From IMG/VR virus record IMGVR_UViG_3300010370_000105, positions 1 to 35,919 of that record: 35,919 bases of DNA. One strand, given 5' to 3'. The notes beneath the pieces were generated by a model, which searched no databases, was not told the origin of the DNA, and saw nothing but the letters and a program-made list of their open reading frames with translations. Both the position numbers and the translations under genes were made by a program. Origin of the DNA: a virus. Each line of letters begins with the position of its first letter. Within the stretch, counting starts at the first letter, position 1. Below, piece after piece: positions 5,640 through 34,792 of this stretch.

Positions 5640-6446
5640 TCATTTCCCAACACAGCATTTTGTTTTATCATAAGGAACATAAGAACTCACATATCGTTTA
5701 AATTGCATAATTAGGCTCTCTTGAGTTCTATCATATCCCAAAACATCTCTTATATACGAAAATCCTTTGGTAAGATAATAGTCATACATCTCTTCATAAT
5801 ATTTAATTTTATCTTTCAACTCTTCTTGACGCTCTAATTCTTTGAGTCTTTTGGATTCTTGTTTTTTGAAGTAAGCATCAAAGTTTTCAATTCTTCCGGG
5901 ATTCCATCCTTCTGGGATATCAGAATTTTTATCTATCTTTTTGTTTTCACGTAATTTCAAATTATGAATCCATCTAGTTCCATATTGAGAATTTCTTTCG
6001 CCTTGTTGATGTTTAATTTCTTTAAGTTTTTTCTTCTGATTTTTTCTTGCTTCAGGAGTTCTTGCTGCCTCAACTGCCTTAGGTTGTATCAATCTTATTT
6101 TTTCTATATTCCTTTCTTTATTTTTGTTCCAACTATCAATTTGTTTTTGTATTAGTTCTTTCTTCAATTGGGGGTCATTTTTTAATTTCTCTTGCAATCT
6201 GTTACTCCCAATTTTACCAAATATACTTTGCTTTTCTGCAATAAATTCTGCCTCGCTTATTTGCCCACTTAATCCTCTCCAAGCAACATAATCCTCAACA
6301 TTTCCCCAGAGTTGATAATTACAAAAATGATACATTGCGTGTTGGGTTACTGTAACTTCAACTAAATTCTCCCTAGCATCTCCACCTCCCATATATCTTG
6401 GGACAATATGATGCTTATGCATTAAAGGACTTTTTTCACAGTCCAT
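5640..6446 (-). CDS. HNH homing endonuclease
   Basis: A 268-residue free-standing HNH endonuclease. The N-terminal nuclease site reads HKHHIVPRYMGGGDARENLV, with histidines and the downstream TQHAMYHF as metal and catalytic residues. The middle is a long basic helical region. GERNSQYGTRWIHN and IPEGWNPGR form the DNA-binding motif seen in many phage HNH and GIY-YIG enzymes. It has a strong Shine-Dalgarno, AAGGAG, 7 nt before ATG. The gene interrupts the tRNA island and has the same control module as the genes at 10626 and 27270: dyad arm, terminator, TATAAATA, second dyad arm. It probably spreads by cleaving alleles that lack it. Confidence 0.88.
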   Translation of the reverse strand: MDCEKSPLMHKHHIVPRYMGGGDARENLVEVTVTQHAMYHFCNYQLWGNVEDYVAWRGLSGQISEAEFIAEKQSIFGKIGSNRLQEKLKNDPQLKKELIQKQIDSWNKNKERNIEKIRLIQPKAVEAARTPEARKNQKKKLKEIKHQQGERNSQYGTRWIHNLKLRENKKIDKNSDIPEGWNPGRIENFDAYFKKQESKRLKELERQEELKDKIKYYEEMYDYYLTKGFSYIRDVLGYDRTQESLIMQFKRYVSSYVPYDKTKCCVGK

Positions 6447-6476
6447 ACGGATTCTCCTTTATTAAGTTCGCAAAGT

Positions 6477-6484
6477 TATTTATA
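6477..6484 (-). promoter_or_regulatory. Late promoter box TATAAATA (HNH gene)
   Basis: Exact T4 late consensus on the minus strand, inside the loop of the dyad and 31 nt upstream of the HNH start. Confidence 0.75.
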
Positions 6485-6492
6485 CAAGAAAA

Positions 6493-6509
6493 GGAGCCTT
6501 TTGGGCTCC
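6493..6509 (-). terminator. Intrinsic terminator upstream of the HNH gene
   Basis: GGAGCC, loop CAAAA, GGCTCC, then TTTTCTT on the minus strand. It would stop transcripts coming from the tRNA-Arg side before they enter the HNH gene. Confidence 0.75.
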
Positions 6510-6548
6510 CTCTCTTACCTTAAAGGTGCGAACTTAATAAGGCACTTT

Positions 6549-6556: not shown

Positions 6557-6564
6557 CAATCAAC

Positions 6565-6635
6565 AGGCGTACCTCGATTCGAACGAGGAATGAGGAGGTA
6601 GAAGCTCCTAGTGATCTCCATTTCACCATACGCCC
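6565..6635 (-). tRNA. tRNA-Arg(UCU)
   Basis: Acceptor GGGCGTA/TACGCCT with one G-U at the first pair. The D-loop contains GG. The anticodon stem AGGAG/CTCCT has loop CTTCTAC, giving UCU for AGA codons. The T-stem CCTCG/CGAGG has loop TTCGAAT. 71 nt. Confidence 0.93.
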
Positions 6636-6728
6636 TTAAGAACCCTCCAGGTTTGAGCATCGTTGAGAGGCTTAGGAGGGGCGGGACTTACATAAGATTT
6701 GGACTCTTAATGCCCATCTAAGAACCAA
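6636..6728 (-). ncRNA. Unassigned transcribed segment between promoter P4 and tRNA-Arg
   Basis: It lies directly behind P4 and continues into tRNA-Arg. It can form CCCTCC/GGAGGG and a TAAGA/TCTTA hairpin with loop GTCCAAA. That hairpin would look like a Trp anticodon arm (CCA), but the acceptor, D- and T-arms do not fit. It may be a degraded tRNA gene or a structured leader. Confidence 0.3.
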
Positions 6729-6729
6729 C

Positions 6730-6758
6730 AGTATACCATAAGTTCTTAGAGTTGTCAA
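6730..6758 (-). promoter_or_regulatory. Sigma70-type promoter (P4)
   Basis: TTGACA at 6758-6753, a 17-nt spacer, TATACT at 6735-6730. It has its own dyad CTAAGAAC/GTTCTTAG flanking the -10, different in sequence from the GACAATC dyad of its neighbours. Confidence 0.8.
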
Positions 6759-6825: not shown

Positions 6826-6826
6826 T

Positions 6827-6898
6827 AGGCAGGGAGGGGAATGATCACTCATAACTCCGTTATAAGCAGAGCATTTTTACCATTTAAATTGCCCGCCC
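6827..6898 (-). tRNA. tRNA-Ile(UAU)-like
   Basis: Acceptor GGGCGGG/CCTGCCT with two G-U pairs. The D-stem ATTT/AAAT has a GG-containing loop. The anticodon stem CTCTG/CGGAG has loop CTTATAA, giving UAU for AUA codons. The T-stem GAGTG/CCCTC has one mismatch, and loop ATCATTC keeps T55-C56. Discriminator A fits Ile. The acceptor and T-arm are weak, so a decaying gene is possible. Confidence 0.55.
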
Positions 6899-10600: not shown

Positions 10601-10629
10601 ATCATAACAGACTCTTTAGATTTTGTCAA
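10601..10629 (-). promoter_or_regulatory. Sigma70-type promoter of the RlpA-like gene
   Basis: TTGACA at 10629-10624, a 17-nt spacer, TATGAT at 10606-10601. It overlaps the 3' end of the endonuclease gene at 10626. Confidence 0.83.
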
Positions 10630-11240
10630 GTGAATAATTTAGTTTCTAGATTATTGGTATAATCCTCAAGAATTTTATTTGAAATTCTTTTTAAAGATTT
10701 TTTTATTCTAAGATCATATACTTCATTATAAGCATTATCAATTTCTTCAATTTTTTTTAACTGCCATCTTCTATGAGCTTCTATAGGATCTAAAAATTTT
10801 CCTAATATAATTTTTTTATTGTTAATTTCAATTTGTGAAATATATTTTCTAGAACTTTTACTATAATAAACACCCAATGGATATTTACTATTTTTTGTCC
10901 TTCCGATGGTTAAAAATGAATTTATTTTATGCGAAACGAAGATGCAAGTTTCTGGTCCATATAATTTATTTCCTGGAACAAGAAAATCTTTATCCAATTC
11001 CTTACCCACCCAATCTTGATTTTCCATCCAAGATTTGAAATTTGAAAATGTTTTCCACTCATCAACAACTTCACATTCACTATAACAAGGATTATAAATG
11101 TGAAACTTTTTATCGTAACACCTCCTCAAAATATGATACCATCTACTATAATAAGGACAACAATATCTTTTCCCATTTTCTATGTACGTTAGAGTGTAGG
11201 AAGCATCATTTATACCTACTCCCCATATTAATTTTTTCAT
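10626..11240 (-). CDS. HNH-type homing endonuclease with AP2-like DNA-binding domain
   Basis: A 204-residue protein. The N-terminal half has YSRWYHILRRCYDKKFHIYNP, then VVDEWKTFSNFKSWM and LDKDFLVPGNKLYGPETCIF, the arrangement of the widespread phage HNH/AP2 endonucleases. The AP2-like part follows: YPLGVYYSKSSRKYISQIE ... ILGKFLDPIEAHRRW, a three-strand DNA-binding fold. It sits between two cell-wall enzyme genes and uses the same dyad, terminator and late promoter module as two other endonuclease genes here. The canonical HNH histidines are not all obvious, so activity is uncertain. Confidence 0.82.
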   Translation of the reverse strand: MKKLIWGVGINDASYTLTYIENGKRYCCPYYSRWYHILRRCYDKKFHIYNPCYSECEVVDEWKTFSNFKSWMENQDWVGKELDKDFLVPGNKLYGPETCIFVSHKINSFLTIGRTKNSKYPLGVYYSKSSRKYISQIEINNKKIILGKFLDPIEAHRRWQLKKIEEIDNAYNEVYDLRIKKSLKRISNKILEDYTNNLETKLFT

Positions 11241-11267: not shown

Positions 11268-11275
11268 TATTTATA
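11268..11275 (-). promoter_or_regulatory. Late promoter box TATAAATA (AP2/HNH gene)
   Basis: An exact late box inside the dyad loop, 28 nt before the gene start. Confidence 0.75.
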
Positions 11276-11279
11276 CAAC

Positions 11280-11301
11280 AAAGGCACTAAAAAGTGCCTT
11301 T
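11280..11301 (-). terminator. Terminator hairpin upstream of the AP2/HNH gene
   Basis: An 8-bp stem AAAGGCAC/GTGCCTTT with loop TTTTTA, followed by GTTG. The stem is strong and the U-tract weak. Confidence 0.6.
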
Positions 11302-11348
11302 GCCTGACTTGAAAAGAACCACCAGTTCAAGCAATATTATTTAGTTGT

Positions 11349-27096: not shown

Positions 27097-27273
27097 TCAG
27101 CCAAGAGTTTTTTCTAGTTCTTGATCTAATTGATTCATTACATTGCGAAGTCCTACAATTCGTTCTGGTGCAAATTCTTGACTATATCCAGCAGTGGAAG
27201 AATCAAGAATTTGAAGAACTTCAAGTGCAGATTGAATGGACAATTTTAGAGTTACTTGTTTTTCTTTTGTCAT
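27097..27273 (-). CDS. Small hypothetical protein downstream of the endonuclease gene
   Basis: A 58-residue ORF beginning MTKEKQVTLKLSIQSALEVL and ending QELEKTLG. Its ATG overlaps the stop of the endonuclease-like gene (ATGA at 27273-27270). It looks like a short beta-helix helper protein of the replication region. Before the endonuclease gene arrived it would have been next to mazG. Function unknown. Confidence 0.65.
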   Translation of the reverse strand: MTKEKQVTLKLSIQSALEVLQILDSSTAGYSQEFAPERIVGLRNVMNQLDQELEKTLG

Positions 27274-28343
27274 TTGTGTTCTCCTTTATGATATTTTTCA
27301 GACCAAATTACTGTGTATTTATCGGTCAAAGACCTTGCAAATTCTTCTTTTATTTTATCAATCTCATAACTTTCTTTTATTGTAGTTTTACTAGAGTTCC
27401 AAGGAGTTGCCTTTTCACTTCCCCTTTCAATTACATCTTGTTCCTTATAATGAAATGGTCCGTGATATTCCAAAATCTCAATAATGTGATTTTTATCTCC
27501 CCTATGACCAGGTTTAAATACAACTAAATCATAAAGTGCCCATCTTCCATTAATATTATACCCCCATTCAAAAAGATTATTTTCTTTATCCGAAAAGGCA
27601 CATTGACTCAAATCATAATTATTTTGTTGAATATAGTTACGAATGAAATCTCTAGATTCAATACTTTGATTTGATATGCAATAACTATTTCTTTTTATTC
27701 TAGTTCCAACAGATTTCTGCGCGATCTCTGGAAGTTTCATAGCACAAGAAACTCCATATTTTTTAAAATTAGTTTTTCTAGCTTTTTCTTTAATTATTTC
27801 AGACCTTACTCCATATTCAACTCCATAATTTTTCAAACAAGTCTGGATTTTCTTTTGATGTATTTCAGCGGATTGGGATGGATTTTCTACTCCATATCGC
27901 TCAAGATTAGTCGCTTTAATTTTTTCTTTTACATTTTCATTTTGAAGAACACATTCGGTTCCATACTTTTTAATATTAGATTGTCTTCTTTTCAATTCTG
28001 AACATTTTTTACATCCAGAATATCCCCTAATATGGTCTAAAGGAAGTTGATAAAATTCTCCGTGTAAAGGGCAAATAATTTTAACTTTTGTTGATTGATT
28101 AATATAATTTACTTGAGAATAATCATAAAACTCTCCTTTATCTTCTCTTTGTGTTTTATATCTTTTTATTAACTTTTCAGTGTTTAATTTTTTAAGATGG
28201 ATTCCTTTAGGTTTTCTTGAAATATTATATTTAAGTAATAATCTAGAAATATTATAATAATTAAATATTTTACATATTTCTTTTTGACTCAAATTTAAAA
28301 CATAATAATGATAATACAATTCTTCTTTTGTTGGTCTAGCCAT
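27270..28343 (-). CDS. Homing-endonuclease-like protein with KYGVE repeats
   Basis: 357 residues. The N terminus has a helix-turn-helix-like segment (YYHYYVLNLSQKEICKIFNY). CPLHGEF ... GYSGCKKC gives a zinc-type pattern. Several copies of a DNA-binding repeat follow (NIKKYGTECVLQ, NLERYGVENPSQS, CLKNYGVEYGV, NFKKYGVSCAM). The C-terminal part (FEWGYNINGRWALYDLVVF ... ILEYHGPFHY) looks like a Vsr or PD-(D/E)xK-related nuclease core of the EDxHD group, with D, E and H visible. It lies between mazG and a small gene and carries the same control module as two other endonuclease genes. Confidence 0.8.
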   Translation of the reverse strand: MARPTKEELYYHYYVLNLSQKEICKIFNYYNISRLLLKYNISRKPKGIHLKKLNTEKLIKRYKTQREDKGEFYDYSQVNYINQSTKVKIICPLHGEFYQLPLDHIRGYSGCKKCSELKRRQSNIKKYGTECVLQNENVKEKIKATNLERYGVENPSQSAEIHQKKIQTCLKNYGVEYGVRSEIIKEKARKTNFKKYGVSCAMKLPEIAQKSVGTRIKRNSYCISNQSIESRDFIRNYIQQNNYDLSQCAFSDKENNLFEWGYNINGRWALYDLVVFKPGHRGDKNHIIEILEYHGPFHYKEQDVIERGSEKATPWNSSKTTIKESYEIDKIKEEFARSLTDKYTVIWSEKYHKGEHK

Positions 28344-28369
28344 TTTAGTATTCGGTTGACGGCATTATT

Positions 28370-28377
28370 ATTTATAC
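28370..28377 (-). promoter_or_regulatory. Late promoter box TATAAATA (27270 gene)
   Basis: An exact late box in the dyad loop, 27 nt before the start. Confidence 0.75.
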
Positions 28378-28385
28378 ATTAAAAA

Positions 28386-28403
28386 GGAGGGATTTCTCCC
28401 TCC
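28386..28403 (-). terminator. Intrinsic terminator after mazG
   Basis: A 7-bp GC-rich stem GGAGGGA/TCCCTCC with GAAA loop, then TTTTT. Confidence 0.87.
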
Positions 28404-28452
28404 ACCTTACAGGTGATTGCCGTCAACCTCAGGCACTATTATTTAGTAGGTC

Positions 28453-34784: not shown

Positions 34785-34792
34785 TATTTATA
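34785..34792 (-). promoter_or_regulatory. Late promoter box TATAAATA (hsp20)
   Basis: An exact late box. Its TATAAA also lies 17 nt from TTGCAA (34815-34810), so a combined sigma70-type and late promoter is possible. Confidence 0.65.

Follow-up and report, generated by a model that had tools for sequence, protein, structure and literature searches.

The inverted repeat located upstream of an HNH homing-endonuclease gene in the window (the complete stretch of 35,919 nucleotides of viral DNA that was analysed) is one copy of a conserved element of about 80 nt. The element is somewhat likely to be a portable cassette for the homing endonucleases of cyanophages, in which the pairing of an upstream arm (arm 1) with the mRNA leader limits translation to the late mRNA initiated at the downstream of two late-promoter boxes (P2). 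Late-only, pairing-limited expression of the nuclease, exerted in cis on read-through RNA in a T4-like manner, is the favoured reading. A control in trans by a small RNA, which would be new relative to the T4 scheme, may be involved as well. At the level of sequence, the evidence consists of two predicted late-promoter boxes that enclose a conserved unit of two hairpins and of a leader that starts with the exact complement of arm 1; this arrangement precedes several nuclease families. As far as Rfam and an incomplete coverage of the literature show, no description of the element was found. Rfam holds no family for it (the best match was RAGATH-36 with 20 bits against a cut-off of 70), and the literature covered yielded only CfrI and the T4 reviews on any such element, or on a small RNA, in front of homing genes of cyanophages.

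The window belongs to a T4-like cyanophage; its DNA polymerase shares 68% identity with the enzyme of Synechococcus phage S-SRM01. The HNH gene (5640-6446, 268 aa, phrog_655, E = 1e-12) lies on the minus strand within a tRNA cluster. Its protein gave tblastn matches to cyanophage endonucleases and no match in Pfam at the default threshold, the HNH match being sub-threshold only. Upstream of it, the order on the minus strand is tRNA-Arg, TATAAATA, arm 1, a terminator hairpin, TATAAATA, arm 2, AAGGAG and ATG. The tRNA-Arg(TCT) (6564-6635) stands directly upstream of the element. The left edge of the inserted unit is formed by the upstream box, P1 (6549-6556). Hairpin I (TGCCTTA...TAAGGTA, 6516-6544), defined by fold and covariation, begins at the predicted +1 of P1 and encloses arm 1 (TTATTAAGTTCGCA, 6527-6540), the pairing of which is extended by CC at 6541-6542. 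A hairpin resembling an intrinsic terminator, with its U-tract (GGGAGCCCAAAAGGCTCC-TTTTCTT, about 6486-6513), was recognised from sequence and fold between the arms. It is followed by P2 (6477-6484), the predicted driver of the HNH mRNA, and by arm 2 (TGCGAACTTAATAA, 6459-6472), the 5' end of the predicted P2 mRNA. P1 and P2 are both included in a 12-nt direct repeat, and both are predicted to be promoter boxes by their match to the consensus; NATAAATA has been published as the late-promoter sequence of cyanophages (PMC2984593).

The original prediction of a dyad spanning a terminator and a late box was confirmed. The two arms form a perfect 14-bp inverted repeat on the minus strand, 100% complementary and 54 nt apart, with the terminator and P2 between them. 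The second arm had also been said to abut the Shine-Dalgarno sequence AAGGAG (6454-6459, 7 nt before the ATG at 6446), and indeed the two overlap by one base at 6459. Four perfect inverted repeats (14 bp or longer, within 100 nt) were found in the window versus 0.1 expected, and the 107-nt RNA that begins with arm 1 and reaches to the start codon folds better than shuffled sequences by 5.6 to 7 SD (z = -7.0).

Three copies of the element are present in the window, two more than the original prediction had named, each before a different homing-endonuclease family and each on the minus strand. Copy 2 (11268-11345) has different arms with a 10-bp perfect core (model R1 57 bits, pairing -22.8 kcal/mol) and precedes an HNH endonuclease gene (10626-11240, phrog_953, E = 1e-83). 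Copy 3 (28369-28447) again has different arms, with an 11-bp perfect core (model R1 46 bits, pairing -24.1 kcal/mol), and precedes a homing endonuclease gene (27270-28343, phrog_12131, Pfam DUF7487). Model R1 is a covariance model that runs from the first box to the second and excludes arm 2. It gave 105 matches in 91 loci, including the three in the window and several per genome elsewhere; these counts are not independent events, since the copies are related by descent. A scan for the terminator tail followed by a late box returned at least 119 viral-contig stretches, most of those listed carrying the layout before a nuclease gene. The seed of the collection was a single exact 19-mer in the terminator and the P2 box, which biases it to copies with a perfect P2. 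An exact DNA search of viral contigs with the window's own box plus arm 2 gave no match because the arms diverge. At least six copies were counted in the cultured cyanophage S-SRM01. The nucleases encoded behind the cassette comprise several HNH families, GIY-YIG and endonuclease VII-like enzymes and one DUF7487 protein, and the terminator hairpin between the arms is kept in all relatives. Whether unrelated homing endonucleases of T4-like cyanophages have received the complete cassette (promoter, small RNA, terminator, promoter and leader) from one another, with its small RNA acting in trans, is, in our estimation, close to an even question, leaning slightly to the negative.

Some arrangements at individual loci were also observed. 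An orphan element without nuclease (L042:3013-3088) has its P2 directly before a baseplate-hub gene (phrog_150), while L106 has a similar element followed by a GIY-YIG nuclease and then by a similar downstream gene with a late box of its own; together they make the loss of the nuclease by recombination between late boxes likely. In S-SRM01, the product annotated as 'translation initiation factor 2' (MW015081.1, 62515-63273) has the N-terminus MVNPNRFYTYAYLREDRTPYYIGKG, as in GIY-YIG homing endonucleases.

The complementarity of the arms is maintained among relatives while their sequence is not. The close relatives of the HNH protein on two viral contigs (L001 and L002) show the same upstream layout with entirely different arms, which are still complementary. 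Among 42 copies from 10 genomes, collected with the model lacking arm 2, pairing of arm 1 with the cognate leader reached -18.7 to -26.4 kcal/mol in all 42, in contrast to an average of -10.2 kcal/mol for the non-cognate pairs of the same copies. The cognate leader was the best partner in 23 out of 23 non-redundant elements. At 364 late boxes from 128 loci, a sample enriched for the element by its way of collection, a dyad of at least 9 bp was found at 116, versus about 10 expected from mispaired controls. Compensatory change in the arms is wholesale and extends over dozens of relatives. Since the arms differ between copies and yet complement their own partner, it is the pairing that appears to be under selection. 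This bears on a reading of the dyad at the level of DNA, as a site (operator or target) to which the endonuclease binds. I-TevI does bind an operator over its own late promoter and represses it (PMC2988022); however, the arm sequences differ between copies with complementarity kept, and the same layout stands before unrelated nuclease families, when a protein site should keep its sequence within one family. A DNA-bound site is therefore regarded as highly improbable.

The same complementarity would serve a step in cis and a step in trans, and complementarity alone cannot tell them apart. Selected orthogonality of the arms was considered as proof of trans action and rejected, as the arms within a genome are no more different from each other than those of different genomes (cross means of -10.2 and -9.7). 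Two copies with identical arms in one genome, the only such pair seen, were found at L170 and L172 (contig of L080, 66855-67330 and 51653-52128), and by their identity the small RNAs of both would cross-regulate.

Conservation of P1 was assessed in 61 elements chosen by terminator tail and P2 only. The motif [A/C]TAAATA was found just before hairpin I in all 61, compared with 4% for TAAATA in control windows; this set alone bears on the conservation of the box, because P1 was a collection criterion for the other element set and a part of model R1. Conservation ends sharply upstream of P1, and the flanks beyond it vary. As expected of free-standing homing endonucleases, the nuclease genes behind related elements are present in some phages and absent from the same site in relatives, which provided 11 empty sites, all for these related elements. 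The P1 box is missing at nine of them, demonstrating that it belongs to the inserted unit. An origin of P1 as ancestral late promoter of the insertion site was ruled out at these nine, and the remaining two match one and the same resident late box in S-SRM01. The original prediction had placed the late start after arm 1. The position of P2 agrees with this, but the P1 box upstream of arm 1, which that prediction had missed, is conserved just as well, so that the prediction holds in part: late RNA would not start only after arm 1, P1 predicting a late RNA that holds it.

From the predicted +1 of P1, the RNA folds into hairpin I, which contains arm 1, and then the terminator hairpin in nearly all of 38 units; one variant unit (L129:27859) folds otherwise. 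Hairpin I was no part of the selection criteria. In its stem, both sides had changed in five out of five modelled pairs. For the whole structure, 144 double-change cells were counted against 34 after shuffling and 91% of cells were paired against at most 58% when slid, in an alignment that was fitted to the structure and so favours it. When stem halves were swapped among 23 elements, the observed pairing was never reached in 20,000 permutations. The loop of hairpin I gave no support for a G+C-rich recognition seed (0.48 vs 0.47). The simplest reading of P1, hairpin and terminator would be a small RNA gene, whose arm is antisense to the start of the mRNA next to it. In the window, the segment from the first box to the terminator looks like a late small RNA of about 60 nt (6485-6544, minus strand), which is delimited by P1, hairpin I and the terminator and would be an antisense RNA to the beginning of the nuclease message. 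The predicted unit combines its own promoter box, a 3' end, a stable fold and specific complementarity to the leader, which are features of antisense small RNAs. That the P1-to-terminator units make up a new phage small-RNA family, every member presenting an antisense arm of its own in a hairpin and targeting in trans the 5' end of the homing-endonuclease mRNA next to it, is proposed tentatively, at a little under even chances.

These data have to be weighed against cis sequestration on early read-through RNA alone, where P1 and hairpin I would be incidental or would serve to end an upstream transcript. Such a scheme is established for e, soc, I-TevI, segB and mobE (PMC2988022, PMC3014915), and two findings in the window agree with it: the leader is hidden in the computed fold, and a sigma-70 promoter-like site lies upstream of the element (TTGACA-17-TATACT, 6730-6758, minus strand, consensus match only), from which read-through RNA would pass tRNA-Arg and enter the element. 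It does not account for P1 being part of the insert and present in 61 of 61 copies, nor for the covariation of hairpin I, with which cis pairing would compete. The related phages also carry six plain hairpins of the T4 gene-e type before nuclease genes, each preceding an HNH or endonuclease VII-like gene, and no late box was found in the 110 nt upstream of any of them. These hairpins have the late box in the loop and stems of up to 20 bp; three of the six are in S-SRM01 (MW015081.1, 33048, 126143 and 142278), the others at L068:3682, L109:2707 and L100 (minus strand, 1555). The T4 scheme alone leaves P1, the terminator and hairpin I unexplained, and as a complete account it is judged possible but rather doubtful.

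Another explanation for P1 would be transcription interference, whereby a polymerase starting at P1 overruns P2 or stalls before it and lowers its use, with pairing as a second layer. The geometry is suitable, P1 and P2 being about 70 nt apart on the same strand and the terminator ending right at P2. Interference leaves unexplained both the covariation of arm 1 with the leader and the enclosure of arm 1 in hairpin I, and it is considered improbable. Transcription attenuation was set aside, since arm 2 lies past the terminator and cannot influence it.

The consequence of pairing for the leader was evaluated in computed folds. The mean unpaired probability of the leader was 0.71 in the P2 mRNA and 0.11 in the read-through RNA, and likewise 0.11 when the small RNA was added. 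For the region from -15 to +3, closure was moderate overall, with the unpaired probability going from 0.59 to 0.34, and absent for the HNH gene of the window (0.53 to 0.57). According to the original prediction, early RNA should hide the Shine-Dalgarno sequence. The pairing does close the leader in the computed folds, but a Shine-Dalgarno-like motif was found in only one of the 23 non-redundant leaders. As most copies have none, it is the leader generally, and not specifically this sequence, that is covered. At the HNH gene itself, AAGG of AAGGAG is paired, but in the predicted late RNA, too, GGA is paired for the most part, so that hiding of the site holds there only in part.

The favoured reading, with its possible extension in trans, can be described in three steps. 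First, early RNA from the tRNA-cluster promoter or late RNA from P1 would mostly stop at the terminator, and those molecules that read through would fold arm 1 on arm 2 and be poorly translated, as in T4. Second, the mRNA starting at P2 would begin with arm 2, lack arm 1 and hence be translatable. Taken jointly, these two steps are regarded as quite probable. A closed read-through RNA and a free P2 RNA would result in late-only and limited expression. Third, the terminated P1 RNA of about 60 nt would present arm 1 in a hairpin and, acting in trans, pair with the P2 mRNA at its 5' end, thereby capping the output of nuclease even late in infection. This action of a late small RNA on the P2 mRNA is put forward with some reserve, its chances being slightly less than balanced.

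Further features were noticed in the tRNA region of the window. Between 5083 and 7971, the minus strand carries an array of near-perfect sigma-70 promoters (TTGACA-17-TATGAT/TATAAT/TATACT), several of which include the inverted repeat TTGACAAT...ATTGTC. Seventeen promoter-like sites were found versus 7.7 expected, and they have the appearance of promoters that each belong to a single tRNA or small-RNA gene. A perfect one (6964-6936) is located upstream of a weak tRNA (6826-6898, minus strand), which obtained 36.9 bits in Rfam and was negative with ARAGORN. Solitary abiF RNAs (Rfam RF03085, cut-off 37) were detected in the tRNA clusters of three cyanophages: the window (6643-6679, minus strand, 52 bits), S-SZBM1 (OL473597.1, 31410-31446, minus strand, 55.7 bits) and S-SRM01 (MW015081.1, 184077-184113, plus strand, 49.3 bits). 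In two of the three, the RNA stands directly upstream of tRNA-Arg(TCT). No AbiF-like protein was found among the neighbours tested in the window. Because the toxin of the C. difficile system is neutralised in trans by AbiF RNA (PMC12373285), the cyanophage RNA may, by analogy, be a decoy against abortive infection by the host. Elsewhere in the window, a late box (34785-34792, minus strand) lies upstream of an hsp20-like gene and is followed by a leader hairpin (TGCGAA...TTCGCA), unrelated to the element and of possible regulatory interest.

The cis part of the proposal alone extends to cyanophages the T4 rule that homing genes are not expressed until late, and does so on comparative data from dozens of loci. 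According to a review of 2010, T4 had yielded no functionally characterised small regulatory RNA that acts in trans, and its relatives were named as a possible source of candidates (PMC3014915). If the P1 unit is a trans-acting RNA, its copies in cultured S-SRM01 offer a testable family. In that case, it would also show how selfish nucleases tame themselves in a new host group and would represent a portable switch for late genes.

The analogy to the T4-type hairpins drawn in the original prediction was found to be sound, in view of the hairpins described for e, I-TevI, segB and mobE of Aeromonas phage Aeh1; such hairpins at the ribosome-binding site precede I-TevI, I-TevII, I-TevIII, segB and mobE (PMC2988022, PMC3014915). 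In the T4-type hairpins (T4 e, soc, I-TevI, I-TevII, I-TevIII and segB, and Aeh1 mobE), RNA from promoters further upstream has its leader paired, and RNA from a late promoter behind the first arm has it free; the cyanophage element is predicted to share this arrangement, with P2 as the late promoter. The stem between upstream arm and leader is likewise shared and is kept by compensatory change in the cyanophage element. T4 segB lies within a tRNA cluster, like the HNH gene of the window. The cyanophage element differs by an additional predicted late promoter upstream of arm 1, a terminator between the arms, the inclusion of arm 1 in a covarying hairpin of its own, and leaders that mostly have no Shine-Dalgarno sequence. 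Its layout was not found in the regions upstream of T4 segB and e.

The CfrI antisense RNA of cyanophage S-PM2 is also linked to a homing endonuclease and is thought to regulate it. It measures about 225 nt and is antisense to the nuclease gene and psbA (PMC2984593), whereas the putative RNA described here has about 60 nt, is encoded upstream on the same strand and pairs with the leader only. In type III toxin-antitoxin systems, an RNA is followed by a terminator and a protein gene, and the RNA binds the protein (PMC12373285). The layout of the cyanophage element is similar, with a putative terminated small RNA directly before the gene that it would control, and in both cases the position of the terminator suggests that read-through sets the ratio of the two products. 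The complementarity to the leader points instead to RNA-RNA pairing in the cyanophage element. In IS10, the RNA-OUT hairpin is encoded on the opposite strand, pairs with the 5' end of the transposase mRNA (RNA-IN) and blocks its translation. The cyanophage element would work in principle like this pair, with a small RNA hairpin directed against the 5' end of the mRNA of a mobile element, except that its antisense arm and the target are encoded on one strand, where they form an inverted repeat, and that the arm has a predicted late promoter of its own.
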